Of a stretch of DNA of 64,000 nt, positions 30,201-47,611 are shown piece after piece. Below the pieces are notes generated by a model. It was not told the origin of the DNA. It saw nothing but the letters and a program-made list of their open reading frames with translations, and made no database searches. The stretch spans positions 124,001 to 188,000 of the forward strand of contig NZ_CP097462.1 of the NCBI RefSeq assembly GCF_023559245.1, written 5' to 3'. Every line of letters begins with the position of its first letter. Position 1 is the stretch's first letter. The DNA comes from Sphingomonas sp. KRR8 (GTDB lineage: Bacteria > Pseudomonadota > Alphaproteobacteria > Sphingomonadales > Sphingomonadaceae). Made by a program: the position numbers and the translations under genes.

Positions 30201-30518
30201 CGGTTTGCCCGCCTGAAAGAAATCGGCGCGCTCGAGCAGTTCGAGCAGGAGCTGACCGATCGCTTCGGTGAATTGCCCGCCGAAGTGCAACTGATACTTG
30301 CGGCCGCGAGGGTGCGGGTGCTGGCGCGGAGTGCGAACATCGCCAAGGTGGACGCGGGCCCGGCCGCGATCGCCTTCACGCCCCGCCCGGGTCGAAGCGT
30401 CGACAAGCTGCCGGCCGACCTGGAGGAGAAAGGCGATCGCTTCCTGCTTCGAGAGGCGCTCGACGACGTGGACGCCCGCCTCCATCGCACGGAAGAGATG
30501 CTCGCCGAACTTACCTGA
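27243..30518 (+). CDS. mfd: Mfd-type transcription-repair coupling factor
   Basis: A DNA translocase of about 1,090 residues that removes stalled RNA polymerase and recruits UvrA. Visible are a UvrB-like N-terminal module, a CarD-like RNAP-interaction domain (LRIGDVVVHEDHGISVV), the helicase motifs GDVGYGKTEVA (Walker A), VIVDEEQRFG (DEEQ), SATPIPRTL and HQLRGRVGRG, and a C-terminal TRCF domain. The usual PYD segment of the N-terminal module reads as a divergent PASDALPGES, so this may be a second, divergent Mfd paralogue. The start is uncertain: TTG 27243 follows AAAGG; GTG 27201 or 27294 are alternatives. A Tn7-like module begins just after its stop. Confidence 0.85.
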   Translation: MIPPSAEKATFRRLLSSVSERLERASLPLVRLHVSTSPSERPNAAATAFHFPPTIEETAAALLDALLEGDLIYLANDELAGRDLQRMIAAAAPDALVLFYPASDALPGESAPPTPANAGERTAVLRHINVELSRPERRRVALISSGEAAARLTAPPEAFATAPPIIEVGQERSLEELAAELIGLGYVADDRIDEPGEVGLRGQVLDVFPADTGRPFRIEAPEGVVTSIRSFDPVSQLTDADCERLELGRVSEPALGDGATLLDHLPDALLGMAAKADGRRLRFLALAADAGKRRPKRALRDICEDERWGGAVRQHGNLAPPESGEDLPPRFVEYRSPERAFVRFAREVIRKGDRLVITGTARDLRFLTPRMERKLEVHPRQLDAWVDLERLGAGEVATLCTPFARGFCRPGLVVVSAADLLGSRAQRDDAGALSDPSALLQAPELRIGDVVVHEDHGISVVSGLQGMGEGEGEAIVLRFAADGRRLVPVTEADRLWRYGAHEEAVTLDKLDGSSWEKRRLDIVKGVAETARGLVALAAERERTEAPALEPECDQYEQFAASFPFTETADQARAIETIRHDLASGKPMDRLLIGDVGYGKTEVALRAAAVAALSGRQVVIAAPTTVLARQHLETARERFGPLGIEVTGLSRLTSPAERKQALGGIRDGTIKVVVGTGAVAGKAVEYHDLALVIVDEEQRFGAADKAKLRGLGAGHVLSLSATPIPRTLQMALIGLQQVSVLGTPPARRQPIRTTIASYDEASVRTALLREQQRGGQSFVVVPRIEDMADMAARIGKAAPELELLQAHGKLPATEIDEVMVRFAGGEGDVLLATNIIEAGLDVPRANTMLVWRADRFGLSQLHQLRGRVGRGARRGQIYLLTEEGAEIAARTRARLATLQAFDRLGAGFEISARDLDQRGAGDLLSDEQSGHVKLIGVDLYQHLLERALREARGEAVDDWTPQLNLGSGGHLPESWIPDEEIRVGLYVRFARLKEIGALEQFEQELTDRFGELPAEVQLILAAARVRVLARSANIAKVDAGPAAIAFTPRPGRSVDKLPADLEEKGDRFLLREALDDVDARLHRTEEMLAELT

Positions 30519-30535: not shown

Positions 30536-30651
30536 TGTCCAAGGGCCTTAGACCTGCTCTTCTTCCCCCATGGGTATCACTTTTTCATCAAAGAGCATTT
30601 GCTCAGAGATGCTCCTAACTCGATCAGGTTTTCACAAGGTTGCTCCTAAGG
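30536..30651. other. Candidate transposon end between mfd and tniQ
   Basis: The 196-bp gap between mfd (stop 30518) and tniQ holds no gene. Short repeats of TGCTC occur at 30553, 30600, 30610 and 30641, two of them as GCTCCTAA (30611-30618, 30642-30649). Clustered short repeats are what TnsB-binding sites at a Tn7-like end look like. A boundary about 20-30 bp after mfd would parallel Tn7 next to glmS. No target duplication could be identified. Confidence 0.35.
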
Positions 30652-30714: not shown

Positions 30715-32535
30715 CTAGCTGAGATTGAGCAGCGCGATCGCGTCAGATCGGCAGAAGCCACCCGGATAAATCTGTTTCACGCCAGCAGCCTTTGCCGCGA
30801 AGTAAGCGGCCTGCTTGGACTTTCCGAGGCGCCAGCTTAATTCGGCGGTGCTGATGTATCGCTGGGCCAATCGTTGGACATCGTCGTGCGGCACAACGGG
30901 CGAGCGCGACCCGCGCGGCGTATATTGGCTCGAGAGCAGTGCTGTCGCCTGAACCGGGCCAAGATTGAGTGTTTCGGCCGCATCTCGCTTTGACATGGTG
31001 ACGGCGAAATCAGACGTGACCAGCGTTGGATCGAAATGAACTTCGGCCAACACGGGGACTGCCGACGCTGCGATCTTGATGCGCCGAACTAGAGGACCAG
31101 GCCCTGCCTCAAGCTCATAGTCGAGACCCCCGTCCAAGAACCGTTCGAAGATAACTCCCCAAGGTTTGAGCCGTCCACCGATGCTGGTCATTGCGATTGG
31201 CAAGCGGACGGTTTCGACACCCAGAATCTGAGAAAACTCTTCGAGGCGTCGGCACAGACCTTCGACCGACTGGCGACTAACGGGGCGCCAGTGATACCTC
31301 TCTTTGAAGTAAGGATGAGTGACCTCGTCAATCAGACGGAGAGCCAAGAGCTGCTCGACCCCATGGGCGCTGATGCCCAGCTGAGACCGGGCGGTCTCGA
31401 GCGAGATCCGATCCTTGCAACCGTCGTTTAGCGAAGCGATTTCGATGGGGCAGAAGGACGCGAGTGGTCTGTCGCGGCGGATAGCAAACTTGGTTTTGAG
31501 CACACCGTCACGTCGCAAGGTCGAAAGTCGGGATTGTTTCAGACCAAGCTGGGCCGCCGCTGGCGAGAGACCGATGAATCGACCTTCATTAGCAGGATCG
31601 GCGATATCGACGGAACGACACAGCTTCTCTGCGACGGTGCAGACGATGGGATCGGCTGGCGTGGACCGACTGCGCCATAGATTGAGAAAGCGCATGGTTT
31701 CGCCTTCATTGCCGTCATCACGGCCGTGCCTCGGCGCGAGCCGGTCAGCGGCAAGATCGAGGAAGGCATGGGGCCAGTGGGATAGGATTTCCCATGCCTT
31801 TGCCATCGAGCTGGACAGCGCCTCGGGCTGCCCGAGGTGGGTAGTGGTCCGGCTCAGCGTGATTTGTGGGTCGATCACCTTCATGATTCGGATGAGGAGC
31901 TCATAGGCGGCGGCGGTCGTCATCGTGTCCAAGGCAGGTGAGAGGCCGGCCAAAGCCGCTTTGCGAACTTCTGGGCAGGGGCTGAACAGGTTCACAACAT
32001 TGGTCAGCGCCGCTCGCTCGGGTTCGGGGACGAAGCCGCCGGCGCCTTGTGAAAGGTCGGCGAGGCAGCGATCGCAGCGATCGATGCCAAACGTCCGTAC
32101 CCATCCTTGCAGAGCGCCGCATGAAGACCGGTGACAGCGGTTCTGGAGATATTGCCAGCTCTCCGGACAAAACGAGATGGTGCGCACCATCCACGTCGTT
32201 CGATGGTGCGGCGAGATGCTGAGGCTCGCAGGCGCGAAGCGCCGTTCGAAGACCTCCAAGTCTGTTTTGCGGATGATCGTCCCATTGATCTCTCGCGAAA
32301 GTCCGTCGCTGGTGAGCGGGAGCCGGCGCCGTTCCAGCTCAGATATCGAAAGACCGACGCGCTCAGCGATGGAAGCAAGATCACGGCGCTCGTTGAGAGC
32401 GGCATCTTGCGCGTTGGGATATTCGACACCGCCGTGGCCGGTCACATCGATCATGCTGTCGATGAAGTTTGCAGCAGCCCACCGGTGCAGGAGGCTGTTG
32501 AGGGACTCGCCGACGATGGGAACGACCGATTTCAC
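30715..32535 (-). CDS. tniQ: TniQ/TnsD-family target-site selector
   Basis: A 606-residue TniQ-family protein, as long as TnsD-type selectors rather than the short TniQ of Cas-linked elements. After the N-terminal PIVGESLNSLLHRWA motif typical of TniQ there is a zinc-finger region with cysteines at about 123, 134, 139, 154 and 157 (CHRSSC, CDRC). The C-terminal half contains at least four helix-turn-helix-like units (for example LSPAAAQLGLKQSRLSTLRR, ARSQLGISAHGVEQLL, AAETLNLGPVQATALL, LSWRLGKSKQAAYFAA), as expected for a protein that reads a long DNA site. Its ATG overlaps the tnsC stop by 4 bases. It probably directs insertion next to mfd; this is inferred. Confidence 0.85.
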   Translation of the reverse strand: MKSVVPIVGESLNSLLHRWAAANFIDSMIDVTGHGGVEYPNAQDAALNERRDLASIAERVGLSISELERRRLPLTSDGLSREINGTIIRKTDLEVFERRFAPASLSISPHHRTTWMVRTISFCPESWQYLQNRCHRSSCGALQGWVRTFGIDRCDRCLADLSQGAGGFVPEPERAALTNVVNLFSPCPEVRKAALAGLSPALDTMTTAAAYELLIRIMKVIDPQITLSRTTTHLGQPEALSSSMAKAWEILSHWPHAFLDLAADRLAPRHGRDDGNEGETMRFLNLWRSRSTPADPIVCTVAEKLCRSVDIADPANEGRFIGLSPAAAQLGLKQSRLSTLRRDGVLKTKFAIRRDRPLASFCPIEIASLNDGCKDRISLETARSQLGISAHGVEQLLALRLIDEVTHPYFKERYHWRPVSRQSVEGLCRRLEEFSQILGVETVRLPIAMTSIGGRLKPWGVIFERFLDGGLDYELEAGPGPLVRRIKIAASAVPVLAEVHFDPTLVTSDFAVTMSKRDAAETLNLGPVQATALLSSQYTPRGSRSPVVPHDDVQRLAQRYISTAELSWRLGKSKQAAYFAAKAAGVKQIYPGGFCRSDAIALLNLS

Positions 32536-33461
32536 GACTGAAATCCGTCGTGGAACGGGTTGTAGTCAATGCGCCGATTGGCGATCGACCAGTCATCCAC
32601 CGCGTCGCTCACGTCGTTCCACGAAATCGAGGCTTCGCCTGCACGAACGATGGCGATGGCCGCTGTTTCGATGATGCGGCAGAACTGGCCGATCAGACCA
32701 TTGGCGCTTTCGTGGAGGAGGCGAAGCTGGTCTTCGTCCGCAACCAAGCCCGAAAGGGCCTTGGTAACGCCGGACGAAACGAGCGCGTGATCGTAGCGAT
32801 CAACGAAATCACAGAAGAGCGATCGATCGTCGCTGTCATTCCAATCGAGCTGGCCCATGGTCACCGGGACGTCGAGGCGATTGGAGAGATCACTCGCAGA
32901 TTTGAACACGTCGTGCGCTGACTCATGTCCAAGGAAGGCGACCGCGCATAAGCCGGCCTCCATCATGTCCTGCACCTTGGCTGCGATGACCGGGCTCATG
33001 GTCGGACGGCGGGCTGCTCGCTGGAATTCGTCCAGCACCAGGATCTGGACGCCCCGATCGGGCAGGCAGTTCCAGACGCGCTCCCAGCGTAAGCTGGCGG
33101 AGCCTCGATCTGGTCGAGGCTCCCCCAAGGCGCGAAGGATGTCCGTGCCGACACTCGCGAGAGAGCCGTCGGGATCGACCGTGGCGATCGCGATGGGCAG
33201 GGTGCCCAAGGCCTTACCCTCATCGGCGAAGACTTTCTCGGCGTGGTCGCGGGCCGCTGTGGTCTTTCCCGCGAACGACGGACCGAACAGGTGCACGCCA
33301 CGCTGTGGACGGCCACGGGTCAGCTGTGCGGTTTGCCGCAGTTCGTCGATTGCGACCTTCAACTCGATCTGTGGAGCATAGGGTAGCGAGATTTCGCCAA
33401 TAGCGAGGCGCGCACGGGCCACGCGATCGTTACGATCGCGCATGTTTTGAATGGCGCTCAT
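32532..33461 (-). CDS. tnsC: TnsC/TniB-like AAA+ ATPase
   Basis: A 309-residue AAA+ regulator that links the target selector to the transposase. Walker A GPSFAGKTT (residues 60-68), Walker B ILVLDEFQ (D144, E145) and a downstream sensor region (AVAFLGHESA) are clear. Its start overlaps the tnsB stop by 4 bases and its stop overlaps tniQ by 4 bases, so B, C and Q are translated as a coupled unit. It is shorter than Tn7 TnsC (555 aa) and closer in size to TniB. Confidence 0.88.
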   Translation of the reverse strand: MSAIQNMRDRNDRVARARLAIGEISLPYAPQIELKVAIDELRQTAQLTRGRPQRGVHLFGPSFAGKTTAARDHAEKVFADEGKALGTLPIAIATVDPDGSLASVGTDILRALGEPRPDRGSASLRWERVWNCLPDRGVQILVLDEFQRAARRPTMSPVIAAKVQDMMEAGLCAVAFLGHESAHDVFKSASDLSNRLDVPVTMGQLDWNDSDDRSLFCDFVDRYDHALVSSGVTKALSGLVADEDQLRLLHESANGLIGQFCRIIETAAIAIVRAGEASISWNDVSDAVDDWSIANRRIDYNPFHDGFQS

Positions 33462-35656
33462 GCTGCGTACTCCCCACCAGCGGCCCGCGAGCGCTTATTG
33501 CGCTTGATCGGTGCTGCATCCCCCTTGGAGGCGGTGTCGGGAAGACTGCGCCGATCTGAGCGACCCTTTGCAGGTGTCCGGCGGTGCCGGGGCGGCGCTC
33601 CGGTCATCACTTCGACGTCAAACGCCGTCTGCGAAGCCTGGTCGTGGGTGATGAACCCGTCGGTAGGGACAGCCTCTGCAACGTCGAAGTCCACGCTCAC
33701 GATATTGCCGGTAAGCTGGCGAATGCGCGGATGCTCGTAGAGGCGGGCGAGTTCGGCCTTTTCGCGGGCTTTTGCCTTCGGGGCGACATCTTTGATGGCG
33801 GCAATGCGGACAGCGCGGAACTCGAGCCGCTCGTCCTCAGAACAGAATGCCCGGCCCTCGGCGGCGGCACGTTCCATCAGGCTTTGATGGAACGCCAGCG
33901 GCATGCCGTCACTGTAGGACGCATCCTCACATTCCAGTGTCACGTAGGTGCGGGTGTGGCGGTTCCACGCGTGGACCGTCGCGATGTTGGAAGGGTCGAA
34001 CTTGACCTTGGTGGTGATGCCGACGGCATCGTCCTTCTTGCGCCGGGGCTCAAAGCGCAAATTGTCGTTGAGGAGAGTGGGAACGTTCCGGACGGAATGA
34101 TACCGCAAGCCGAAGATACGGGCGCCAGAGTTCGTGATCCGTACGTTTTCTTCGACTTCCATGATGTTAATCATGGCTGCGCGGATATCGCACATGACAT
34201 CGATGCCGTGCGCATTGGCCGAATTTTGAAACATGAGGGCTGGAGGGCGATTGTCGATGCCCTCGTGAGGAGCAACATTATACTCGCCGGTGGTCCAGTT
34301 CGCGCGAGCCTCCAGTCCGAGTAGAGTTACTTCGGCTTTGGCTTGCGGTTCGTTCTTGGCAATGCGGTTGTATTGAATGCTTTTTGTGTGACCGGGCAGC
34401 CCTTCCAGGAGCCAGACGGGAATGGTGCCGAAAGCTCGTTCGCCAATCGCCTTGTAGCGCGGCTTCTTGATGGGAGCGTGGCGAATGCTGATGCCGGTGC
34501 TGCGGGCAAAATCGCGCATGCTCTTGCAACGAAACTCGACGCCATTGTCGACGATGATTTCCGTCGGTCGACCACAAAGCCGGCGCAGGATCGGAAAACG
34601 CTCAACGAGGCGCGACGGCGGCCGCTTGGGCAGCAACATACGCCGCACGATCTCGAAGACCGTCCAGTAGCTCGGCGGAAGGAGGGTGACGAGCGCGGCA
34701 AGGCAGGCGCGCGAATGCACGTCGATGGCCAGCGTGAGCCACGCGCGCTCGGCGCACCATGGCTTGGCTTCATCCGAGACGATGAAACAGTCGAGCTCGG
34801 TGTGATCGATGATCACACGCTGCAGGATGCGATTGGCGGTGAGCTTCTTTCCCGCCCCCTTGTGCTTGGCTTCGACGTAATCGGGGCCATGCCGCGCCTC
34901 GTCGATTTCGCTCCCGATGATCTTCCGACAGGCGCGCCGGAAGGTTGCGTAGCTGAAGCACCGGTAGGGCGTATCCGGTGCGGGATAGAAGGGATGATGC
35001 CCATTGTTGACCAGGGTCAGCTCTGCGGAAGCGAGTGCGAGGTGGTCGATGAATGAACCTTCCGTCGCCGCGCAGCGCATAGCATGCTTCTGTTTGATCT
35101 GCTCGACCACGTCGTTGAGCCAAGGCGCACGGGGCACCTTGCCGTTCATCCGCACCATGTCCTTGCAGGTGCGGCGGCCCTTCACCCCGCGCTCACTGCG
35201 CCAACGCCTGATGTTGTGAATGTTGTCGTGTTCGCCGTATTTCTGCCGAAGTTCGTCGGTCCAAAGGTGAGGCAATGCGATCTGCATTGCCTTGATGCCG
35301 TTCGGAACATTGTTCTCGTCGAGCAACTCGCATTGCACGAGCATCTTCTCCGAGCCGGGATCGAGTGCGAGGCAGTCGGAATGGTCCCACTCAGTCTTGG
35401 CAGCGATCTTCTGTGCATTGAGCAAGGGCTCGGGATAGATTTCACGGAGACGCCCCTGGATCTTCAGCTCGTCGAGCGCCTCGGGCGTCGGATAGCTGAT
35501 GGTGCCGTCGTGGTCAGGACAAAGAAAGGGCTGCCCGGTGATGACGTGGATGAGGTGAAGCCGTCCCGGGACCGGTGACGGCTGGGGATGGTACTGGGCG
35601 CCATCGATCTCGAGAAGCGTGTTGGCCGGATAGTTGTAGTGAGGCAGCTGGCTCAT
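33458..35656 (-). CDS. tnsB: TnsB/TniA-like DDE transposase
   Basis: A 732-residue transposase with an intact RNase H-fold catalytic core: D284 (IIDHTELD), D370 (IIVDNGVEF) and E406 (YKAIGERAFG), giving a D-D-35-E spacing. N-terminal helix-turn-helix segments (about 120-260) should bind the transposon ends, and a C-terminal beta-barrel (mu-type, about 500-600) follows. It performs 3'-end cleavage and joining; TnsA would cut the 5' ends for cut-and-paste. It starts at ATG 35656, 252 bp downstream of tnsA, and overlaps tnsC. Confidence 0.92.
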   Translation of the reverse strand: MSQLPHYNYPANTLLEIDGAQYHPQPSPVPGRLHLIHVITGQPFLCPDHDGTISYPTPEALDELKIQGRLREIYPEPLLNAQKIAAKTEWDHSDCLALDPGSEKMLVQCELLDENNVPNGIKAMQIALPHLWTDELRQKYGEHDNIHNIRRWRSERGVKGRRTCKDMVRMNGKVPRAPWLNDVVEQIKQKHAMRCAATEGSFIDHLALASAELTLVNNGHHPFYPAPDTPYRCFSYATFRRACRKIIGSEIDEARHGPDYVEAKHKGAGKKLTANRILQRVIIDHTELDCFIVSDEAKPWCAERAWLTLAIDVHSRACLAALVTLLPPSYWTVFEIVRRMLLPKRPPSRLVERFPILRRLCGRPTEIIVDNGVEFRCKSMRDFARSTGISIRHAPIKKPRYKAIGERAFGTIPVWLLEGLPGHTKSIQYNRIAKNEPQAKAEVTLLGLEARANWTTGEYNVAPHEGIDNRPPALMFQNSANAHGIDVMCDIRAAMINIMEVEENVRITNSGARIFGLRYHSVRNVPTLLNDNLRFEPRRKKDDAVGITTKVKFDPSNIATVHAWNRHTRTYVTLECEDASYSDGMPLAFHQSLMERAAAEGRAFCSEDERLEFRAVRIAAIKDVAPKAKAREKAELARLYEHPRIRQLTGNIVSVDFDVAEAVPTDGFITHDQASQTAFDVEVMTGAPPRHRRTPAKGRSDRRSLPDTASKGDAAPIKRNKRSRAAGGEYAA

Positions 35657-35908: not shown

Positions 35909-36847
35909 TCAATGGATCTTCACGAGAGTCCGGTCGCTCAAGTGACCGGTAAGATCGATCTCAAGCTTTCGGCGCACACAGAGCGCCTGCATGACGGCTT
36001 TACCAAGCGGCGGGAAATCAGGCTCGAGCAGCGCTGCCATTGCGCCATAGGTCGTGACATCACCCTCCTTGGCGGCGAAGGCATCGATTGTCCGCAAGTG
36101 CTTTGGCGTGACGGTGGTGAACGCCCTCCCGGCAAAGAGTTCGATGTTATCGCGATGATGGCGATCAACGAACACTTCGTCCGCCATGACGACCTCGAAC
36201 TGGAAGCCAACCCGGCGACAAATTTCGTGAACGCCTGCGAGGGTCAGGCGATAATCGGGGTCGCGCAATGAACGTTCGTCGGCCTTGTTCTCGATGATCC
36301 GACGGGTCCCGTCGGCCATCATGATTTCCACGTCGCAAGTGTATTCGCGCCAGCGGCCGTCCAGCATGAAGCAAAAGCGGCGAGCTTCTGACTGCGCCCA
36401 TAGAACGTCGTGGTCGCACTCGGCTTTGAGCAGAGTGTAGAGCTGGGTCATTCCTTCCCAGTGCTGAAGGCGCTTGCGTTTCCAGCTCGGGAACCACCCG
36501 GTTTCGTGCCCGGACGCGCCACTCATCAATCGCAGCGATCCACCGTCGGAGCTGACCTTCATCTCGGCGGTAAGGACGAAGTTTGGGTCAGCCTTTCCTT
36601 CGAGCGCGCTGGCGGCGATGAGGTTAGCGCGGGACGGGAGAATTGACGGATCACGCATTTGCAGCGGCAGCGGCAAATCTCTGACGATTTCCTGCGAGAC
36701 CGGAATCGAGATCACCTTCGCTCGATCATTTTGGCCATCAGCAGCGAAAGTGCCGCCGTCCGTCTTGCGACGGGTCTTGCTCACGAACGAGCCGAGCCAT
36801 GGTGGCCGATCCAGCGCCCGCGCCGTTCGGCACCGCGCCGTGACCAC
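35909..36847 (-). CDS. tnsA: TnsA-like endonuclease
   Basis: A 312-residue homologue of the TnsA endonuclease that cleaves the 5' ends of Tn7-like elements. The catalytic core shows an upstream acidic position (CDHDVLWAQSEARRF region), then D172 in YTCDVEIMM and E186-N187-K188 in RRIIENKADE, matching the D...ExK pattern of restriction-like nucleases (ENK for the usual EVK). A DPDYRLTL stretch and a C-terminal winged-helix-like domain (about 240-305) follow. The annotated start is GTG; the first ~55 residues may be overcalled. It begins the minus-strand tnsA-B-C-tniQ cluster. Confidence 0.82.
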   Translation of the reverse strand: MVTARCRTARALDRPPWLGSFVSKTRRKTDGGTFAADGQNDRAKVISIPVSQEIVRDLPLPLQMRDPSILPSRANLIAASALEGKADPNFVLTAEMKVSSDGGSLRLMSGASGHETGWFPSWKRKRLQHWEGMTQLYTLLKAECDHDVLWAQSEARRFCFMLDGRWREYTCDVEIMMADGTRRIIENKADERSLRDPDYRLTLAGVHEICRRVGFQFEVVMADEVFVDRHHRDNIELFAGRAFTTVTPKHLRTIDAFAAKEGDVTTYGAMAALLEPDFPPLGKAVMQALCVRRKLEIDLTGHLSDRTLVKIH

Positions 36848-36984
36848 TCGGGCACGTCCCGGACTAGGTAATTGGACGCATCTTGCAGCCGAAGCGCTTT
36901 GACGAACATGCGAAGAACGAACAACGGCATAAGCGCGATAACCTCAATCGTAAAACCAATACAGTGCACATAATAAAGCTTGGG

Positions 36985-37038
36985 AGCTTGTGCAACAGAT
37001 AGATTCTACGTTGATGAAACCGGGAAGACACGCTAAGG
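36985..37038. other. Region upstream of tnsA, possible second transposon end
   Basis: The 198-bp gap between tnsA and the next gene is AT-richer than its surroundings and should hold divergent promoters. Read on the minus strand it contains CCTTAG (37038-37033), TCTTCCC (37028-37022) and TTTCATCAA (37019-37011), short blocks that recur in the same order, with different spacing, in the mfd-tniQ gap (30546, 30561, 30583). In Tn7 the end adjoining tnsA is the right end. Evidence is weak. Confidence 0.25.
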
Positions 37039-37045
37039 TAGATGC

Positions 37046-38221
37046 ATGGCAGACGACGAACTGAATGAGCGCCTCCTTCCGCTCCTGTCGCACTATCTTC
37101 CCGAGGGGAGCGAGCGGAGCCCTGCCGGCGAGCTTCGAGACATCCTCGCGCTTCCCCCCTCTGTGAGGGAGGCGATCATTGCTCGGCTCGAAGCGATCGC
37201 GCGGTTCGACAAGGAGCCGGGCACCGCGAGCGCAGACGCGGAGGCGGCTCGCCTGGGTATGAAGCGGCGAAACTTCTATAATCTGGTCGCACGCTTACGC
37301 TTGGACGGGCCGATCAAGGCTTTGTCGCCTTCAAAGACAGGTTATCGTCGTCCATCGGCTTTGGAACCAGGTTTGGGTGACTTGGTCGAGCAAACCATCG
37401 GCAACGTATTGCGCGGTGATCCCAGCAGTTCGGCAACACGGGTGATTGAAGCGGTCAGATCAGAATGCGATTTGCATCAGATCAAGCCGCCAAGTGATCG
37501 CACCATTCGGCTGCGGCTTGCCGCGCTGCAGGCGAAGAATATCGCGCCTTTGGCTGGTGATGCCTTGCTCGGACGCGAGATCCTGATCGATCAAACGGCG
37601 GCAGCATTTGTGCTGACCGGAGAGGAGGAGAGGCTTGGCCTGATCAACGTGGTGGCCGATGTCGGCACACGGTTGATTCTTGCCGTCGGCGTGGGTCAGT
37701 GCGGAAAAACAGATTCCGGCCTGGCGCGGCTTCTTCTGGATTGGGAGACGCGCCGCAGCACGCTGCCTTGGGATCGCTTCGAAAACGTTATTTGGCCCGA
37801 GACCATTGAGTGGATCGTGCCTGACGAGCTTGCAGACGAGGCGAGACAGTGGAGCCGGAATGCAGCGCTCAGTGACATCACGGCCCTAACAACGACAAAG
37901 GGCGAACGCCGGCACGGCCGTCGCCTGACTGCTGTTCTTGGTCGAAAACTTGGTTGGCTAGATTTTCTGCCCCGTCGCACCGAGCACGCCCTCGTTCCGG
38001 CTTCGGAGGCGGCCGCCAAATTCCCGAGGCTTGAAGCAAATGAGGCGCAGGCAGCGATTGCGGCTCTTGCTACAGCATGGAACGAGAAACTGGCCTCCGC
38101 GAGCCCCCTGCATCGTCAAGATTCAAACAATCACGGCTTGGGTTGGGTGTTTGGTAGCCTGGAAACAATGCTTCGGCATTCAGCCGAGTGGCACGCGCTT
38201 TTGCACGCCACCAAGCGCTAA
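37046..38221 (+). CDS. Degenerate DDE-integrase-like protein, 391 aa
   Basis: I do not recognise a named family. The N-terminal part has a helix-turn-helix-like motif (AEAARLGMKRRNFYNLVARL, about 66-84). The middle follows the RNase H-fold order of TnsB-like integrases: a first strand ILIDQTAAAF with D182, a second strand INVVADVGTRLILAVGVG, then WIVPDELADEARQW with D260. At the position of the third catalytic residue the segment HGRRLTAVLGRKL has Arg instead of Glu, followed by a LPR that mirrors the LPG of TnsB here. So it is probably a catalytically inactive integrase relative. It overlaps the next, convergent gene by 4 bases; that gene encodes a similar fold. Confidence 0.55.
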   Translation: MADDELNERLLPLLSHYLPEGSERSPAGELRDILALPPSVREAIIARLEAIARFDKEPGTASADAEAARLGMKRRNFYNLVARLRLDGPIKALSPSKTGYRRPSALEPGLGDLVEQTIGNVLRGDPSSSATRVIEAVRSECDLHQIKPPSDRTIRLRLAALQAKNIAPLAGDALLGREILIDQTAAAFVLTGEEERLGLINVVADVGTRLILAVGVGQCGKTDSGLARLLLDWETRRSTLPWDRFENVIWPETIEWIVPDELADEARQWSRNAALSDITALTTTKGERRHGRRLTAVLGRKLGWLDFLPRRTEHALVPASEAAAKFPRLEANEAQAAIAALATAWNEKLASASPLHRQDSNNHGLGWVFGSLETMLRHSAEWHALLHATKR

Positions 38222-39078
38222 CTTTGACGTGATCCGAGGTCGCAACTGAATGCTGCCGGCAATCGGAACGGGTACAGGACCTCGCGGTCCGCGTTCCAGA
38301 GCGCGATCGAGTGGGCCACAGTCTTGCGCGCGTCCTCAAGTCGCACGGGGGGCACTTCCGCGATAAGGGTGGTAAGGCGCTCATGATTGAGGCGGGGACG
38401 CATAGGGACACGACCGATCTGTGCCATGCGTTCGAAAAGGAAGTTGCCCTTCGAGAGCTGTTGCATGTGACGGCCGCTCGTCTTCACGCCGGCAGCACGC
38501 AACGACTTGCGTAGCGGACCCCAGTGGCGTTTCGTCTCGCTGTGCATGGTGATCGCGGGCACGTTCGCAAATGGCGAAGATGAGGTTTGTTTCGCCCAGT
38601 CGAGTAAGGCCTCGAGGGTCGACGCCGGTGAGGGCGGCTCAAGGCCAAGGCTATGACCAAGGATTGCTCCATTGGCGCGGTCGATCACCACGGAAAGGTA
38701 GGCCGGAGCCTTTCCCATCGGAGTCTTGATTGCCAGTTCCAGTCCGGTGTGATCGATCGCAAACCGTTCGTCATCGGGCAGGTCGCTCAGAACTCGGGCA
38801 TTCTTTTCTCGCCGCTTTTTGACGAGAGTTCGTTTGCTAAAGTCCGTGCCGTCAGGATGATTTCGCGGCGCTCTTACGACTTTAGGCGATGGATTGTTCG
38901 ACCGCTGAAGCATCGAATAAAACGCCCGCCGCTTGATGTTGAGCTTGGAAGCTGCCTCGTCGACGTCCGCGACGGTCGGCGATGGAAGGGAGCGATAGTG
39001 GGCAAGCACCGCCGCCACGTCGAGCGCCCGCGACCAGTGTTTGGGCGCGAGAGAAGTCAAGCGACCATCTTGCGTCAT
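38218..39078 (-). CDS. Degenerate DDE-integrase-like protein, 286-288 aa
   Basis: Convergent partner of the 391-aa gene and probably distantly related: both have the motif K-R-R-x-F-Y in a predicted helix-turn-helix (here AASKLNIKRRAFYSMLQR, about 45-61). The integrase-like core shows AIDHTGLEL (D111), a strand AYLSVVIDRANGAILGHSLG, ITMHSETKRHWG where the second Asp is replaced (H181 region), and NFLFERMAQIG with Glu retained (E218). The second Met (39078) has GGAGG at 7 bases and is preferred; ATG 39084 directly abuts that sequence. It is shorter than transposases of its type, and catalysis is doubtful. Confidence 0.55.
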   Translation of the reverse strand: MTQDGRLTSLAPKHWSRALDVAAVLAHYRSLPSPTVADVDEAASKLNIKRRAFYSMLQRSNNPSPKVVRAPRNHPDGTDFSKRTLVKKRREKNARVLSDLPDDERFAIDHTGLELAIKTPMGKAPAYLSVVIDRANGAILGHSLGLEPPSPASTLEALLDWAKQTSSSPFANVPAITMHSETKRHWGPLRKSLRAAGVKTSGRHMQQLSKGNFLFERMAQIGRVPMRPRLNHERLTTLIAEVPPVRLEDARKTVAHSIALWNADREVLYPFRLPAAFSCDLGSRQS

Positions 39079-39085
39079 TTTCATA

Positions 39086-39160: not shown

Positions 39161-39466
39161 CTAATTCGCGGATCGAACGTCCAGGCACTCTATCCTTAGA
39201 AAATCGAGGAGCGCCTGGAGTGAACCTGTATCCAGACGATAGATGATTGATCGGCCGCAACGCTCCGTGCTGAGAAGCCCAGACCGGGCAAGCAAACCGA
39301 GGTGGTCGCTCAATGTATTTTGCTGCACCTGAAGTTTGCGAGCGATTTCGCCGGCCGCAAGACCTTCCTTACCTGCTGCGGAAAGCAGGCGAACGACTGC
39401 CAGCCTCGTGTCGAAGCCAAGCGCGCCCAATGCCGCAACGGCATCCTTTTCTTCCATCGTCCTCAT
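39161..39466 (-). CDS. ArsR-family transcriptional regulator
   Basis: A 101-residue winged-helix repressor: LGALGFDTRLAVVRLLSAAG, then AAGEIARKLQVQQNTLSDHLGLLARSGLL (recognition helix) and the wing RCGRSIIYRLD. It lacks the ELCVCDL metal site of enterobacterial ArsR; its only cysteines are near residues 70 and 94. The sensed signal is therefore unknown. It is divergent from the 39639 gene, with an inverted repeat in the 172-bp gap. No arsenic genes are adjacent. Confidence 0.85.
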   Translation of the reverse strand: MRTMEEKDAVAALGALGFDTRLAVVRLLSAAGKEGLAAGEIARKLQVQQNTLSDHLGLLARSGLLSTERCGRSIIYRLDTGSLQALLDFLRIECLDVRSAN

Positions 39467-39638: not shown

Positions 39639-40343
39639 ATGACGAGATTTGAGCGACGTACAACCAGCGCGCATTCCATGGGACGCTTGCGGCCGCGCTT
39701 TCCGACGCCTGACAATCCAACCCGTTTGGGATTGGCTGACATTCGCGTTCTTAGCGTGGCCGTAGAGACAGGGGCGCGTTTTGTTCGTGACCGCCTTGAG
39801 GGTGATCCGCTGGATTGGCTCTTCGGCGCTAAGTCGCTGTTTGACGGTCGCAGTGCGGTGGCGACGTGTCGGCATGAGGAGGGCTTTCGCCGCGCCATTG
39901 TCTTTCACGGCCTCTCGCTTGGGTCCGACGTGCATCCATCTGCCCTGGAAGGATTGCCGGCGTCAGATTTTCTTAGCCAGGGGGCCAGAAAGCGCCTCAA
40001 CTACGTTGCAGAAGCATCGACCGGCGGACCGAGAGCGAATCATTCGCCGCTTGCTCTTTTCACTGCAGTAATCGCAGCCGAAACCCGGTCTGGTTGCGTC
40101 CAGATTTATAGCGGAATGATCGCTCACGCTGAGGAAGAGGTGCGGCGTCGACTGCGCATGCGATATGGAGCTGTCCTTGAGGGCGAGGCGCGCATCCAGC
40201 GTGGTTTCGATTGGAGCGAGCCTCTCGCGGCTGCGCTCGTGTCAGGCGCGATGGCTCATGTTCTAACTGTTGCTCAGCACGATCCTGAATCGACTTTCGC
40301 TGAAGGGCTCGATTTTCACGTCGAGCAAAGGTTCGCGAATTGA
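39639..40343 (+). CDS. Hypothetical protein, 234 aa
   Basis: Not recognised. Soluble, no signal peptide or membrane helix. It contains a segment DPLDWLFGAKSLFDGRSAVATC and a following FRRAIVFHGLSLGSDVHPSALEG that looks helical, and a C-terminal region with AEEEVRRRLRMRYGAV and a two-helix end. Its stop overlaps the next gene's ATG (TGATG), so the two products are probably made together. The downstream partner has an MbcA/ParS-like C-terminus, which raises the possibility of a two-component toxin-antitoxin-like unit, but no toxin motif is seen. Confidence 0.5.
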   Translation: MTRFERRTTSAHSMGRLRPRFPTPDNPTRLGLADIRVLSVAVETGARFVRDRLEGDPLDWLFGAKSLFDGRSAVATCRHEEGFRRAIVFHGLSLGSDVHPSALEGLPASDFLSQGARKRLNYVAEASTGGPRANHSPLALFTAVIAAETRSGCVQIYSGMIAHAEEEVRRRLRMRYGAVLEGEARIQRGFDWSEPLAAALVSGAMAHVLTVAQHDPESTFAEGLDFHVEQRFAN

Positions 40344-41005
40344 TGGTCCGCAAGATCGATGGGGCCGGGGATGAACGCGGTGACGTTCCACGGCCGTCCT
40401 CAAGCCACGATGCTGAGCTGCACGAATGGTCGTTCATGAAGGTCGATGATGCGACTGTGGCGATAGGGCGGGTGTTTCGGGACAGCAAGAAGCGCTGGCC
40501 CGACGGCTATGCAATTGTCACCTCAGCGGTATTGAAAGGTTCGCGCCGCACTAACGGCGTGATCACCACCATGAACACGCGATACCGTCTCATTGGCCCA
40601 TCTGGTCAATTGAAGGGGCTCAAAGAAGCCAGCGCTAACCTCGCGCGCCGGGTCGCGATCGAGAACGATGCACAACTCTTTGACCTGCTCGCCGCCGCTT
40701 GGGCGATGGACGATGAAACTTTCGAGAAGGTCGCCGGCCTTCCCTCGAAGTGGATGTGGCAGTGGCGCCATCATTATCGATCGCCTACCGATGATGATCT
40801 CGTGTTGGTCCGGCGCCTAGCGCGGTTTCATGCATCGCTCAGATTGGCTTACTACCGTCAGCCACATTACGGTGAATGGTGGCGTCGGCCTTGGCGCGGA
40901 GATAGCCTTCTAGGGGGTCGATCGCCGTTGGAGGCGGTCCTCTCTGATGGCTCGATCATCCTCGATCAGATGGAAAGGTATTTCCGTTCCTCGGTGGGAT
41001 GGTGA
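40343..41005 (+). CDS. Protein with MbcA/ParS-like C-terminal domain
   Basis: A 220-residue protein. The first ~100 residues (LHEWSFMKVDDATVAIGRVF, TTMNTRYRLIG) are an unknown beta-rich domain. The C-terminal ~100 residues resemble Xre/MbcA/ParS antitoxins: a helix-turn-helix-like DDETFEKVAGLPSKWMWQWR and the toxin-binding-type motif SLLGGRSPLEAVLSDGS. ATG 40343 is coupled to the upstream gene. A fused regulatory or antitoxin role is plausible; no RES-domain toxin is next to it. Confidence 0.5.
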   Translation: MVRKIDGAGDERGDVPRPSSSHDAELHEWSFMKVDDATVAIGRVFRDSKKRWPDGYAIVTSAVLKGSRRTNGVITTMNTRYRLIGPSGQLKGLKEASANLARRVAIENDAQLFDLLAAAWAMDDETFEKVAGLPSKWMWQWRHHYRSPTDDDLVLVRRLARFHASLRLAYYRQPHYGEWWRRPWRGDSLLGGRSPLEAVLSDGSIILDQMERYFRSSVGW

Positions 41006-41501: not shown

Positions 41502-42863
41502 ATGTTACGCACGATCGCGGCCGTGTCGGCTGCGGCGTCCCTCGCCTCGATGGCAGGGGCACAGGTGTCGTCATTGCCGGGCGTACCGGCAATCGACGCC
41601 CAGATACCATCATCACTCTTCTCGCTGAGCCGAGCACTCCAGGTTGGCAACGTCGCGCCAGCCTCATCGCCCGACGGCGTGGCGACGGGCACCGCCCTTG
41701 GCTCCGAGGTGGCAGATGGAGCAACCGAGTTACCATCGGTCGGAGCCGCTAACGCCGGTGTTGCGGCGGCGACGGCCGCGCGGAGCGTGGCCGGCCTTCG
41801 CCCAAACCCTGAAGTGCAGGCGCAGGTCGAGAATGTCGCTGGAACCGGTGCCTATCGCGGTCTGCGCAGCTCAGAAACGACGGTTGGCGTCGCGCTTCCT
41901 CTTGAACTTGGCGGCAAGCGGTCGGCGCGGGTCGCCTTGGCGGATGCCCGTCTGACGCGCGCACGAATTCAGGCGGAGATTGCGCGAGCCGATCTACGCC
42001 TCCGTATCACGCAACTCTACGTGGCGGCAGCCGCTGCCGAACGTCGCTCGGAGGTGCTGCGAGAGCAAGCTGCCATCGCGGGCAATGCGCTCCGCATCGC
42101 CAGCGAGCGGGTCAAAGTCGGCGACGTTGGTCCAATCGAGCAGCAACGGGCCGAAGTGCTACGGGTCAACGCGCAGATCGCAGCTGACAATGCCGCCCGA
42201 CAAGAGCAGGCCGCTCGCCTGAGCTTGTCTACGATCCTTGGGCAGCCTGTAGATGGGCCGCTCGACCGTGCTTGGTTCGACCGTATTGATGACGTGGGGC
42301 CGTTGCGCTCATTCTCGGTGGACGAGACGCTGACGCTTGCAGCAGCGCTGGCTGACATTTGGACAGCGGGCGCTCAGGTTCGGGTGGCACGGTCGTTGCG
42401 AGTTCCGGACGTGACGGTCAGCGCCGGAGCGAGGCGGCTTTCGGCCACCAATGACACCGCTGCCGTGTTTGGCGTCGCAATTCCAATTCCACTGTTTAAC
42501 AACGGTGGAGCCTTGATTGCGCAGTCACGGGCTGAGCAGACGCAGGCCATCGCGCTGCGGAGCCTTGCAGTAGTGGAAGCGCGACAGGCCATTGCCAATG
42601 CTCAGGCCGAGGTCGCCAACGCCGGGGCCACTGCACGTGCCGCCGGCGGTCCAGCCCTTTCTGCAGCGCAGGAAGCGGCGCGGATCGCGCGGGTCGGCTA
42701 CTCGGCGGGTAAATTCGATCAGATCGCGCTGCTCGATGCCGAGCGCACCCTTTCGCAAACACGCCAAACCTACATCGACGCGCTTGCCGCCTATCACGAC
42801 GCGCAGGCGCGCCTCGACCGGCTCACGACGCCGGCCCCCCATATTCCTGGAGACAATCGATGA
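41502..42863 (+). CDS. czcC: CzcC-type outer-membrane efflux protein
   Basis: A 453-residue TolC-family outer-membrane channel. It begins with a signal peptide (MLRTIAAVSAAASLASMAGA) and continues with two repeated long helical hairpins (for example residues ~150-250 and ~350-440). The LGGKRSARVALADARL segment is typical of CzcC/CusC-like proteins. It overlaps czcB by 4 bases (ATGA). Together with CzcB and CzcA it should form a trans-envelope pump for Co/Zn/Cd. Confidence 0.9.
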   Translation: MLRTIAAVSAAASLASMAGAQVSSLPGVPAIDAQIPSSLFSLSRALQVGNVAPASSPDGVATGTALGSEVADGATELPSVGAANAGVAAATAARSVAGLRPNPEVQAQVENVAGTGAYRGLRSSETTVGVALPLELGGKRSARVALADARLTRARIQAEIARADLRLRITQLYVAAAAAERRSEVLREQAAIAGNALRIASERVKVGDVGPIEQQRAEVLRVNAQIAADNAARQEQAARLSLSTILGQPVDGPLDRAWFDRIDDVGPLRSFSVDETLTLAAALADIWTAGAQVRVARSLRVPDVTVSAGARRLSATNDTAAVFGVAIPIPLFNNGGALIAQSRAEQTQAIALRSLAVVEARQAIANAQAEVANAGATARAAGGPALSAAQEAARIARVGYSAGKFDQIALLDAERTLSQTRQTYIDALAAYHDAQARLDRLTTPAPHIPGDNR

Positions 42864-44044
42864 TCGATCAGGATGCCAGTCAGAAGCGGCGCCTGCTTGG
42901 CGGCGCGACCGGGATCGCGCTCTTAGCCGCCCTTGGCGGCTTCGCACTCGCAAAGTTCAGTACCGACACCCCCCCCGCAACCGAAATGGCGAGCGGCAAC
43001 GGTTCCGCGCCGGCAGCAGCGGAAAATAAGACGCCCGACAGCCTAACGATGACGCAGCAGGCCATCAGTCAGGTGGGCATCGCGACGGAGACCGTCCGTG
43101 CGGGCGGCCTTGGGTCCGAGATCATTGCGCAGGCAATCGTGAATGCCTCGCCGCAAGGGGAGGCGATTGTCACCGCCCGCGCGGGGGGCGCAGTCACACG
43201 GTTGTTCAAGCGATTGGGAGATCCAGTCCGCGCCGGGGAGACCTTGGCGATCGTCGAGAGCCGAGATGCCGCGCAGATCGCCGCCGATCGCAGCGCGGCA
43301 GCAGCCAAGGCCGTGCTGGCGCAGAAAGCACTGGCGCGTGAATCCTACCTTTATCGACAGAAAGTATCGGCACGGGTCGAGCTGGAGCAGGCCCAAGCTG
43401 AGGCCGCCGCCGCCGCTGCAGAGGCTCGGCGTGCGAGCGTAGCCGCAATCGCTGCGCGGGTAACGGCGAACGGGCGCGGCGTAGTCGTTTCCAGTCCAAT
43501 TTCCGGGCGGGTCACATCCGAGAACATCACGCTGGGCGCTTTCGTCCAGCCGGAAACCGAGTTGATGCGCGTCTCTGATCCGTCCAAGGTTCAGATCGAG
43601 GCGGCCGTCGGGCCAACCGATGCGCAACGCCTTGCTCGCGGCGATCGAGCGATCATCGAGCTGCCCGACGGACGGGCGATCGAGGGGCGAGTCCGCGCTG
43701 TAACGCCGGCGCTCGCGGCAGAAACCCGCTCGGCGACTGCAGTTCTAGATGTGCCGGGAACGCTGCAGCCGGGGCTGGCCGTGCGAGTGCGGTTGCTTCC
43801 CAGCGGCGCTTCAGTCTCGAACGCCATCGTCGTGCCCGAGGATGCCGTCCAATCGCTGGAGGGCCGAGACGTGGTCTTTGTCCGCACAGGACAGGGATTC
43901 AGGGCTCAAACAGTGACGCTCGGGCAGCGCAGCAGCGGCCGTATCGAAATCTTGAAAGGTCTCGAGCCGGGAAGCGTGATCGCGACCACAAATGCATTCC
44001 TGCTCAAGGCCGAGCTCGCCAAGGGCGCCGGTGAGGAGGAGTGA
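42860..44044 (+). CDS. czcB: CzcB-type periplasmic adaptor
   Basis: A 394-residue HlyD-family membrane-fusion protein that connects CzcA to CzcC. It has an N-terminal membrane anchor (about 14-32, GATGIALLAALGGFALA), a barrel-sandwich/lipoyl region split by an alpha-helical hairpin (about 110-200), and a C-terminal beta-barrel with VPEDAVQSLEGRDVVFV. Overlaps czcC by 4 bases; a strong GAGGAG ribosome site stands before czcA. Confidence 0.9.
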   Translation: MIDQDASQKRRLLGGATGIALLAALGGFALAKFSTDTPPATEMASGNGSAPAAAENKTPDSLTMTQQAISQVGIATETVRAGGLGSEIIAQAIVNASPQGEAIVTARAGGAVTRLFKRLGDPVRAGETLAIVESRDAAQIAADRSAAAAKAVLAQKALARESYLYRQKVSARVELEQAQAEAAAAAAEARRASVAAIAARVTANGRGVVVSSPISGRVTSENITLGAFVQPETELMRVSDPSKVQIEAAVGPTDAQRLARGDRAIIELPDGRAIEGRVRAVTPALAAETRSATAVLDVPGTLQPGLAVRVRLLPSGASVSNAIVVPEDAVQSLEGRDVVFVRTGQGFRAQTVTLGQRSSGRIEILKGLEPGSVIATTNAFLLKAELAKGAGEEE

Positions 44045-44048
44045 GCCG

Positions 44049-47000
44049 ATGATCGCCAACCTCATGGCGCTCAGCGTGCGCGCACGCTGGGCGGTAGTCG
44101 CCCTGTTTCTCGTCGTCGCCGGGCTGGGCCTGTGGCAGCTAACCAAGCTGCCGATCGACGCTGTTCCCGACATCACGAACAAACAGGTCCAGATCAACAC
44201 CGTGGATCCTCGCCTATCACCGGTGGAGATCGAGAAGCTCGTCACCTATCCCGTCGAGATATCGCTGGCCGGCATCCCCGGTCTCGAAACGACGCGCTCC
44301 ATCTCGCGCAACGGCTTCAGCCAAGTCACGGCGATCTTCACCGACAGCACCGACCTTTATTTCGCCCGACAGCAGGTCGGCGAACGGCTTCGGCAGGCGA
44401 CAGAGAACCTCCCGGACGGCGTGCAGCCACAGATCGGGCCGGTCACGACGGGTCTCGGCGAGATCGTGATGTACACCGTAGGTTATGCCAATCCCGACGG
44501 TCGCGGCGCCAAGAAGGTTGCGGGCCAGCCCGGCTGGCAGCCGGACGGCAGCTATCTCACGCCAGAAGGTGAGCGGCTGATCGATGCGACGGCCAAGGCC
44601 AGCTATCTGCGGACAGTTCAAGACTGGATCATCAGTCCGCAGCTTCGTTCGGTAAGCGGCATCGCCGGCGTCGATTCAATCGGCGGCTATGCCAAGACGT
44701 TCGTTGTCGAACCTGATCCGGTAAAGCTCGCCAGTTTCGGTATCTCTTACAGTGAACTCGGGCAGGCCCTCGAAAACGCCAATCTGGCGGTTGGCGCCAA
44801 CTACTATAACAAGGGCGGCGAGGCGTATCTCGTCCGCGTCGACTCTCGCGTCCGCACCGTTGACGAAATCCAGAACGCCGTCGCTGCCACGCGCGGCGGG
44901 GTGCCGATCACGATCGGCCAAGTCGCCAATGTGAAAGTCGGTGGCGATCTGCGGACCGGTGCCGGCAGCATGAACGGCCAGGAAGCCGTGATTGGCACGG
45001 TGTTGATGCTGATCGGTCAGAACAGCCGCATTGTCGCGGAGGATGCCTCCAAGAAGCTCGATCAGATCGCCAAGACGCTGCCGCCAGGCATTCAGGTTAA
45101 GGTTGTGCTTGATCGCGCCAAGCTGGTCGGTGCCACGGTCGGCACCGTCGAACGCAATCTCACCGAAGGCGCAATCCTCGTCGCGGCTTCCCTGTTTCTG
45201 TTGCTCGGAAACTGGCGGGCAGCCCTGATCGCCGTTCTCGTCATCCCCTTCTCATTCCTGATGATGGCGATGGGCATGAACGCGTTTGGGGTGCCCGGAA
45301 ACCTGATGAGCCTCGGCGCGCTCGACTTCGGCCTGATCGTCGACGGCGCAGTGATCATCATCGAGAATTGCCTGGCGCGGCTTGCGCAACGGCAAGAGCA
45401 TGAAGGCCGCCTGCTCAATCTTCGCGAACGTCTTGAGGAGACGATGCGAGCGGCGCAGGAGATGATCAAGCCGACCGTCTTTGGTCAGGCCATCATCCTG
45501 CTCGCCTTTGCTCCGTTGCTCACCTTCACCGGGGTCGAAGGCAAGACCTTCTCACCGATGGCGATCACCATCATGCTCGCGCTGGTGGCGGCGTTCGTCC
45601 TCGCGATCACCTTGGTGCCGGCGATGGTAGCAATCCTGATCCGGGGTAAGATTGCCGAAAAAGACGTGTGGCTGATCCGCAAAGCCAAGGATCGCTACGT
45701 CCCGCTGCTCGACAAGGCGATCGCACGGCCATGGCCATTCATCCTTGCCGGGCTCGCCTTCTTCCTATTGGCCTTTCCCGCCTTCGGGCTGCTCGGCTCG
45801 GAATTCATTCCTCAACTCGATGAGAAGAACCTGGCGGTCGCCTCAACACGCGTGCCGTCGGTCAGCCTCGAACAATCGCTCGCTATGCAGCGGCAGGTCG
45901 AGGCGGCCGTGAAGAAGCTGCCCGAGGTCGAGACCATGTTCTCGAAGACCGGTACGGCCGAGGTCGCGACCGATCCGATGCCGCCCAACGTCTCTGACGG
46001 CTTTGTCATCCTCAAGCCTCAGGAGGAGTGGCCGAAGGACGTAGAGACAAAAGCCGATGCGATAGCCAGAATCGAAAAGGCGGCGGGTGGGCAGCTCGGC
46101 AACCTGTATGAGGTTAGCCAACCGATCCAGCTTCGCTTCAACGAATTGATCGCTGGTGTTCGCGGCGACGTCGCGATCAAGCTCTACGGCGACGATCTCG
46201 ACAAGATGTCGCAGGCCGCGAATGAGATGGTTCGGGTCCTTCAAGGCATTCCAGGGGCGGCCAGCGTGAAAGCCGACCAAGTGGGCGGTGCGCCGACACT
46301 CGACGTCAGGCTCGACCGGGTGGCAATCGCCCGGCTCGGCCTCACCGTGCGGGATGTCGCCGATACGGTGGCGGCGGGGCTGGGAGGGCGCGAGTCGGGA
46401 CTGGTCTATGAAGGCGATCGCCGGTTTGATGTGACCGTACGCGTCCCAGATGCGACGCGTGCCAATCTTGACAGTATCCGTGCACTCCCAGTGCTTCTTC
46501 CAGCAATGGAAGGTCGCCCGCGCAGCCAAGTGCCATTAGCGCAAGTCGCACAGATCCGGCTGACCGAGGGACTTAACCAGATCAGCCGCGAGAACGGCAA
46601 GCGGCGCGTCGTTGTCCAGGTCAACCTTGCCGGCCGCGACGCCGGTTCGTTTGTCCAGGAAGCGCAGGCGAAGGTCGCCAAGGTCAAGTTGCCGGCGGGC
46701 TACTATCTCGAGTGGGGTGGTCAGTTTGAGAACCTGCAGGCGGCTTCAAAACGCCTGTCGATCGTCGTGCCACTCTGCTTCGCGGCGATCTTCGGCCTTC
46801 TCTACCTCGCGCTCGGCAGCTTTGGACGTGCCGGAGCTGTGTTTCTCGCGGTGCCGCTCGGGCTGGCCGGTGGCGTTTTCACGCTTGCATTGACAGGCAT
46901 TGCCTTTTCGGTCTCGGCCGCAGTGGGCTTCATCTGTCTTGCCGGTGTCGCGGTGCTCAATGGTCTGGTCGTCATGTCGGCGATTCGGGAGCGAAGCGAG

Positions 47001-47291: not shown

Positions 47292-47611
47292 CCGTCCATA
47301 AGCTGCTTCGCATCTACACCGACGAGAGCGCCTTCAGCGGTGACCGAAGGCTCTTCGAGGTCATCGCCGAACGTGCCCGCGACGCCGGGCTTGCCGGTGC
47401 AACGGTGCTCGATGCGCGGCTTGGCTTCGGCAGGTCCGCGCATGTTCGACGACGACACATCCTCGAGAACGAGCGATCGGTTGTCATTGAGATCATTGAT
47501 GAGGAGGCAAAGCTTAGGTCGTTCGTGGCGAGCCTTGCCGGTTTCCACGGCATCGGCCTCATCACAGTCGAGGCAATCGAATTGATCTTTCTGCCGACGG
47601 AGGCTGCGTGA
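47288..47611 (+). CDS. DUF190 (PII-like) protein
   Basis: A 107-residue DUF190 protein with a PII/GlnB-like ferredoxin fold: HKLLRIYTDESAFSGDRRLFEVI, then AGATVLDARLGFGRSAHVR and a final strand VEAIELIF. Such proteins occur with transporters and may sense nucleotide or metal state. The ATG overlaps the czcA stop (ATGA), so it is part of the czc operon. Confidence 0.88.
   Translation: MTVHKLLRIYTDESAFSGDRRLFEVIAERARDAGLAGATVLDARLGFGRSAHVRRRHILENERSVVIEIIDEEAKLRSFVASLAGFHGIGLITVEAIELIFLPTEAA

Follow-up and report, generated by a model that had tools for sequence, protein, structure and literature searches.

Beside the tnsA gene of a Tn7-like transposon lineage found in one bacterial family (Sphingomonadaceae, judging by its named members), two genes lie tail to tail and form a cassette whose products, here called A and B, are old paralogues inside the TnsB/TniA/MuA integrase-fold family. 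By descent both proteins belong to the integrase-fold superfamily, but they fail as catalytic members of it, and it is implausible that the pair cuts DNA in the usual way. The shared history of A and B differs statistically from that of TnsB, TnsC and TniQ, which shows that the cassette has been exchanged between transposon cores or has diverged independently of them. We would class the pair as a new accessory module carried by an element of an established kind, the Tn7-like transposon.

The locus and its recurrence

The window, by which we mean the whole 64-kb stretch of DNA analysed, is part of a single-contig 2.87-Mb genome. Read from the left, the region has an Mfd-like gene followed by the minus-strand genes tniQ, tnsC, tnsB and tnsA; next come A (plus strand) and B (minus strand), and to their right lie an ArsR gene, two genes of no assigned function and putative metal-resistance genes. 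The host element is Tn7-like in that TnsA, TnsB, TnsC and TniQ are encoded together, with TniB/TnsC and TniQ above their Pfam cut-offs and the rve and TnsA-like NCBIfam matches below theirs. The features of the locus are as follows.

30599..30646, minus strand: two end-type repeats (30599-30615 and 30630-30646), 31 bp apart, a pattern not above chance within the window alone
30715..32535, minus strand: tniQ/tnsD-like gene, 606 aa, PF06527 above cut-off
32532..33461, minus strand: tnsC (TniB-type AAA+ ATPase), PF05621 above cut-off
33458..35656, minus strand: tnsB, 732 aa, with D284, D370 and E406 in place
35909..36847, minus strand: tnsA-like endonuclease gene, NF033179 at 38 bits, below the cut-off of 110; start codon uncertain
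36848..37045, no strand: intergenic DNA between the divergent genes tnsA and A, in which 36983-36996 resembles an end repeat of a related element (a weak likeness, compatible with chance)
37046..38221, plus strand: protein A, 391 aa, with an HTH region, an RNase H/integrase-fold domain without the catalytic Glu, and a short C-terminus
38218..39084, minus strand: protein B, paralogue of A, with H181 at the second-Asp position
39161..39466, minus strand: ArsR-family regulator, which with ORF234 marks a far flank that is conserved while A and B differ (window versus locus L028)
39639..40343, plus strand: ORF234, accessory gene of no assigned function; four related loci (L028, L081, L088 and L090) have relatives of it

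The first-pass annotation of this DNA had the coordinates and strands of A and B, their 4-bp overlap and the 391 aa of A right; its 286 aa for B is the length in the database record, whereas translation from the first ATG gives 288 aa. The stretch between HTH and core is shorter in this B than in the other aligned B proteins, its relative P0007 excepted. Better copies of the end repeats, 32 bp apart, stand at the corresponding place in the element of genome G236 (L028). When both transposon ends were searched for, end-type repeats were seen at the tniQ side only, and the search for the far end found no target duplication; the sole far-end candidate from the motif scan (G000:C1:193885) was rejected, as it lies inside a tyrosine recombinase reading frame.

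Several neighbouring genes deserve mention in their own right. The Mfd-like protein encoded at 27201-30518 of the window may be a second, divergent Mfd paralogue; its best matches are 42-45% identical in eight of nine genomes and 54% identical in G005, which also has a 44% match elsewhere. ORF234 and ORF221 (window 39639-41005) recur beside related elements, ORF221 in L090, and may therefore be further accessory genes; ORF221 matches phrog_8840, a family of no assigned function, with E 2.5e-14. Window positions 41502-50328, together with L115, look like a large metal-resistance island with CzcCBA-like efflux genes and a cation diffusion facilitator (functions assigned by eye), and cytochrome bd genes and a P-type ATPase, likewise recognised by eye, lie in this putative island beyond the window.

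Of the 296 genomes in the order sample, 15 matched in a search with A alone, and in G174 and G228 oppositely oriented matches lay side by side. Profile mapping then gave the gene order B, A, tnsA, tnsB, tnsC, tniQ, in which A runs away from tnsA and towards B. The mapped set comprises 22 distinct A-B pairs, the window included, and 21 of these have detectable TnsB, TnsC and TniQ. Since 22 such pairs could be mapped, the pairing is beyond chance. The 3' ends of A and B lie between a 107 bp overlap and a 56 bp gap in 21 of the 22 pairs, with an overlap of exactly 4 bp in six; the exception is L079, at 1137 bp.

Because these loci had largely been found through A or B, the search was repeated with TniQ alone, which returned 23 loci in 21 of the 298 family genomes. 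All four core genes stood on one contig in 17 of them: 14 carry the pair (some with broken frames), one (L090) carries a rearranged or partial remnant of it, and two complete cores, L155 and L156, are without it, the latter with apparent insertion-sequence genes touching tnsA. The TniQ locus of G222 probably continues on a second contig (L079), which carries the pair, tnsA and tnsB, and the remaining loci comprise three with tniQ only and two that end at a contig edge. The proposal that the genes form a true pair linked to tnsA thus holds in most loci (14 of the 17 complete cores found by TniQ alone). Outside the family, the class sample of 385 genomes held two weak TniQ-profile matches, both with core genes and without the pair. 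The A profile matched five of the 385 genomes class-wide; G000 and G005 are taken as true A, and the other three matches are partial and presumed to be of TniA type. The B profile matched in 39 of the 298 family genomes, many times only in parts of longer frames that are presumed to be transposases. Six named loci found by alignment of the B group belong to Novosphingobium, Sphingobium and Sphingomonas.

It had been allowed that the folds might prove unrelated to RNase H, or that the genes might occur alone and unlinked to each other or to mobile elements. Neither was found, except for three single-copy relatives (in L082, L088 and L089), the remnant in L090, and L128 and L129, in which B is present and no core gene was detected in the 20.9 kb fetched. 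In L129 the B gene region is 9803-10921, and a fragment of A lies about 10 kb downstream. The single-copy relatives (L082 996-2696, L088 8837-10225 and L089 1671-2966) flank other Tn7-like cores, divergently oriented to the tnsA or tnsB side, and are, by eye, likewise without the second Asp and the Glu.

Descent and catalytic residues of A and B

Profile-profile comparison places A and B close to each other (hhalign E 2.5e-30) and to TniA (E 1.7e-18 for A and 6.4e-21 for B), and the B profile matches the TnsB of ShCAST (E 1.5e-8). Against the local TnsB profile (A8) both matches are weaker than against TniA, at E 2.6e-7 for A and 7.6e-11 for B, and this profile itself includes two TniA rows. 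Among solved sequences only the B profile matched TnsB; the A profile found none, with a best E of 0.49. Single-chain structure models of both proteins match TnsB and MuA in Foldseek, with query TM of only 0.17-0.37 in the cited rows; the B model is of low confidence (mean pLDDT 60.7), and the VIA Z of 7.8 for the A model lies in a range that the tool calls common. These matches bear out the integrase fold proposed at first pass, and the N-terminal HTH region proposed with it is supported in both proteins. Like TnsB (Tn7, CAST V-K and I-F) and TniA (Tn5053-type), A and B consist of an HTH part followed by an RNase H-like integrase core.

The two proteins have moved far from their relatives. 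Neither has a Pfam or NCBIfam match above cut-off or a PHROG match better than E 0.05. Close relatives number at least four for A (49-52% identity) and at least one for B (P0007, 85%) among the candidates scored from 5.8 billion proteins, and a B profile search gave at least 14 matches including the query; in these protein searches the candidates scored were those sharing most words, so that relatives may be missed. Viral contigs held no match for A or for the B group (A5), and plasmids none for B. Seven plasmid records were matched by A; they are annotated as Mu-transposase-C proteins, and the two that were inspected have TniB and TniQ adjacent. In a tree A and B group apart from the local TnsB proteins; this tree omits three A and nine B rows, has TnsB cut to ten rows and includes three rows with less than half of the kept columns.

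In the TnsB/TniA/MuA superfamily the C-terminal part beyond the core comprises a beta-barrel and a tail that contacts TnsC. For A the alignment to TniA stops early, at column 342 of the 391 in its profile (357 of 559 in TniA), and for B it stops at 327 of 346 (369 of 559 in TniA), so that most of TniA beyond the core is without counterpart in A and B, in which little sequence remains there. A further difference from TnsB and TniA is that A and B are two paralogues standing beside a separate TnsB that has its D, D and E.

Neither A nor B retains a complete D-D-E triad. In the A of the window, D182 is the first Asp and D260 falls on the second Asp of TniA in hhalign, and both had been recognised as kept at first pass; the Glu had rightly been called lost, although the residue at its position is, by eye, T295 beside Arg residues and not an Arg itself. 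This position lies within the most conserved stretch of A (G291, G299, G303, P309 and T312, with the spacing G-x7-G-x3-G-x5-P), which aligns without gaps on the GGHIER helix region of TniA and puts the Glu on T295 (by eye). Across the family, the first Asp is present in 25 of 25 A proteins, and the second stands exactly in column 260 in seven of them; a tolerance of one column brings this to 19 of 25 (the background for a three-column stretch is 17%). The Glu is gone in all 25 A proteins (0/25 at column 295; within one column 2/25). A typically keeps two Asp residues, with which it might still bind a metal ion.

For the B of the window the earlier reading stands: D111 is the first Asp, a His (H181) occupies the second-Asp position, and E218 lies at the Glu position or one residue off (by eye). 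Elsewhere in the family, the first Asp (Asp-111) is found in 21 of 35 proteins and the second is gone in nearly all (present in 1/34; within one column 2/35). Glu-218 is found in two of 34, namely this B and its relative P0007 (within one column 3/35). B typically keeps one catalytic residue or none. The statement that each protein has lost a different member of the triad is accurate for these two genes, and the loss of Glu from A is general; retention of Glu by B is not. In contrast, the TnsB proteins of these loci have D, D and E in 19/19, 20/20 and 20/20 rows with letters, and five TniA proteins have them invariant. The 20 TnsB rows include L090, L155, L156 and L158, which have no complete pair or are cut by a contig end. 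The residue counts leave out L124 and L125 (duplicates of L027 and L079) and L162 (of L081), A or B rows of up to 100 bits (L082 and L090) and TnsB rows of up to 400 bits.

These counts bear directly on the proposal that A and B jointly rebuild one working D-D-E site. At this locus the residues would allow it, as A has Asp at positions 1 and 2 while B has Asp-111 and possibly Glu-218, and an Asp at or beside the second position occurs in 19 of the 25 A proteins, but with Glu in so few B proteins most pairs hold none to supply. In known enzymes, moreover, the three catalytic acids come from one chain. A shared active site is accordingly disfavoured by the near-general lack of Glu from B and is hardly credible, and the heteromer suggested at first pass for rebuilding such a site is not supported, the B proteins besides this one and P0007 being without Glu.

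Cassette and core histories

Trees and rank Mantel tests on distances (5000 permutations) were made for 21 six-gene loci. The Mantel set excludes the duplicates L124, L125 and L081, loci missing any of the five genes tested (e.g. L079, L128 and L129), the single-copy loci L082, L088 and L089, the remnant L090, L085-L087, L091-L093 and the outer B of L078; L023 was kept despite its weak core-gene matches. Core genes correlate strongly with one another (TnsB-TnsC 0.81, TnsB-TniQ 0.70 and TnsC-TniQ 0.75, p 0.0002 each), and so do A and B (0.55, p 0.0002, and still 0.55 after removing TnsB). Correlations of A or B with any core gene range from -0.14 to 0.10 (p 0.19-0.92), those with TnsB being 0.02 for A and 0.06 for B. 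Because A-B distances correlate and the core correlates with itself while A and B do not correlate with the core, A and B behave as one exchanged cassette. The loci are few and the divergence is deep, linkage alone could explain the history that A and B share, and many pairwise identities are near 20%, so that saturation may hide a weak link between A or B and the core.

The same pattern is visible in individual clades. L022, L030 and L074 form a clade in both the A and the B tree (supports 1.00 and 0.99), and their TnsB proteins fall in three other clades (0.98-1.00). L027 with L126 (1.00 and 0.996) and L083 with L084 (0.999 and 0.97) show the same behaviour, grouping in A and B but not in TnsB. 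Between the window and L028, identity is 64% for TnsB, 72% for TnsC, 60% for TnsA and 57% for TniQ, but 23% for A and B, about the average over the 16 loci compared (those with all six genes above 60 bits); on the far side of B the identity rises again, to 52% for ORF234, and the ArsR gene also matches. Cassette behaviour is seen as well in L078 (7350-11615), which has two stacked A-B cassettes. Its inner B falls with L080, its outer B falls with L023 and L081, and the outer A is a 91-aa fragment. This arrangement suggests that a new cassette was inserted next to tnsA and that the older one is decaying.

Possible roles of the pair

We tentatively favour, at a little under an even chance, a role of A-B as a DNA-binding accessory module for target choice or licensing. 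A fuller version, which we hold somewhat more loosely, is that this exchangeable module of two ancient dead transposases is a protein-guided target selector (or a licensing switch) that passes between distant TnsABC-TniQ cores in much the way that phages exchange immunity regions. A and B would act together, probably as a heteromer, and would bind DNA through their N-terminal HTH domains and their non-cutting core. The feature recognised would most likely be something other than the element's own ends, either target DNA or a feature of the host or of a rival element, and own-end recognition is the less likely because A and B do not track TnsB. At the recognised site A-B would steer or license the TnsABC core, much as TnsE or TnsF provides a further target route beside TnsD.

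A and B retain a DNA-binding architecture. Target choice or licensing is favoured by their homology and fold, the incomplete triad beside a TnsB with D, D and E, the recurrence of the pair, its cassette behaviour and the precedent of TnsF; several points argue against it. No target site was seen in common within an A-B clade, as the genes next to the tniQ end look different even among A-B sisters (20 loci, gene names by eye). TniQ, at about 600 aa, is the size of TnsD, and the element should therefore already have a target selector. A selector would have to contact TnsC or TniQ, but A and B were not seen to co-diverge with these, and the history shared by A and B may reflect linkage rather than contact. 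Finally, the two complete cores without the pair (L155 and L156) speak against it, as do the weak structural matches and the lack of a TnsB match for the A profile among solved sequences.

The precedent for this role is TnsF of Tn6022, a dead tyrosine recombinase that selects targets and that the element requires in order to transpose into its target (PMC10293859). As with A-B, a Tn7-like transposon has here taken on a recombinase that lost its activity and uses it as an accessory factor binding DNA. TnsF derives from a tyrosine recombinase, carries zinc fingers, is a single protein and sits in the tniQ operon with a short TniQ, whereas A-B is DDE-derived, consists of two proteins, lies on the other side of tnsA and accompanies a long TniQ. 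The Pfam rows for A and B include no zinc-finger or phage-integrase family, and both proteins match DDE transposases. TnsE, which in the same source offers Tn7 and Tn6022 an optional target route besides TnsD/TniQ and stands on the opposite strand in Tn6022, differs in its described fold, with PriB-like SSB domains (PMC10293859), and the TnsE models of Pfam and NCBIfam matched neither A nor B. The survey in that paper sought extra selectors among genes in operon with tniQ (PMC10293859), an approach from which a pair located beyond tnsA would probably escape. Our search of full-text literature found no description of a dead DDE pair in Tn7-like elements, and the first-pass remark that no described system has such a pair stands.

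It is rather unlikely, although the main competitor to target choice or licensing, that A and B are regulators, whether DNA-binding repressors or a two-state switch, acting on the divergent tnsA/A promoter, with their convergent transcripts interfering with each other. The geometry fits, as A is divergent from tnsA in the mapped pairs, the single-copy genes of L082, L088 and L089 are divergent from tnsA or tnsB, and the 3' ends of A and B lie close together in all mapped pairs but L079; a regulator could also be swapped along with its own operator. However, no shared operator-like motif stood out among A-B sisters: when compared with 40 shuffles, L025-L076 alone of six A-B sister pairs scored higher, as did L026-L077 (sisters in both) alone of six core sister pairs. 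The sequence TATCTAGA, common to the tnsA-A intergenic DNA of L025, L026 and L029, which have different cores and cassettes, is suggestive only; it lies inside a palindrome in L029 and occurs elsewhere in L022 and L126. It would also be unusual for two RNase H-fold domains to be kept for a plain repressor. A regulator within a Tn7-like element has a precedent in CvkR, the repressor of type V-K CAST (PMC9938897), which is of MerR type and, unlike A-B, not transposase-derived.

We regard it as quite improbable that A and B bind the same ends as TnsB, whether as non-catalytic members of the strand-transfer complex or as competitors. Their HTH-plus-core layout is that of TnsB and TniA, and the match ends where the C-terminal part of TniA continues. 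Truncated transposases that act as inhibitors are known, such as Tn5 Inh, and these are non-catalytic transposase derivatives encoded by the element and derived from its own transposase. Unlike Tn5 Inh, A and B group apart from the local TnsB, and by profile they are nearer to TniA than to it (with the two TniA rows in the TnsB profile noted above). They do not co-diverge with TnsB (r 0.02 and 0.06), and clades of A-B sit on distant TnsB proteins, whose ends should differ. The first-pass suggestion of an inhibitor or architectural subunit at the element's own ends is weakened by this lack of co-divergence. Taken as a whole, the earlier interpretation is partly supported.

Still less probable is that the transposon serves A and B as a vehicle and that the pair is a cargo-like passenger, for example a module that excludes or defends against other mobile elements. 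Cassette-wise exchange and high divergence would suit a passenger, as would the cores without the pair and the B genes without detected core genes in L128 and L129, but the position and orientation beside tnsA are constant across distant cores and the single-copy relatives adjoin other Tn7-like cores.

If target choice or licensing is indeed the role of A-B, Tn7-like elements have taken up dead relatives from their own transposase class and kept them as a conserved accessory of two proteins, as Tn6022 did with a dead tyrosine recombinase, and the pair would open a new way to study how heteromeric transposons select or reject targets. The module may be a portable control part, since the TnsABC cores with which it apparently functions are very different. 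It is relevant, too, to the way transposases turn into non-cutting DNA-binding factors, a recurring theme in genome evolution.
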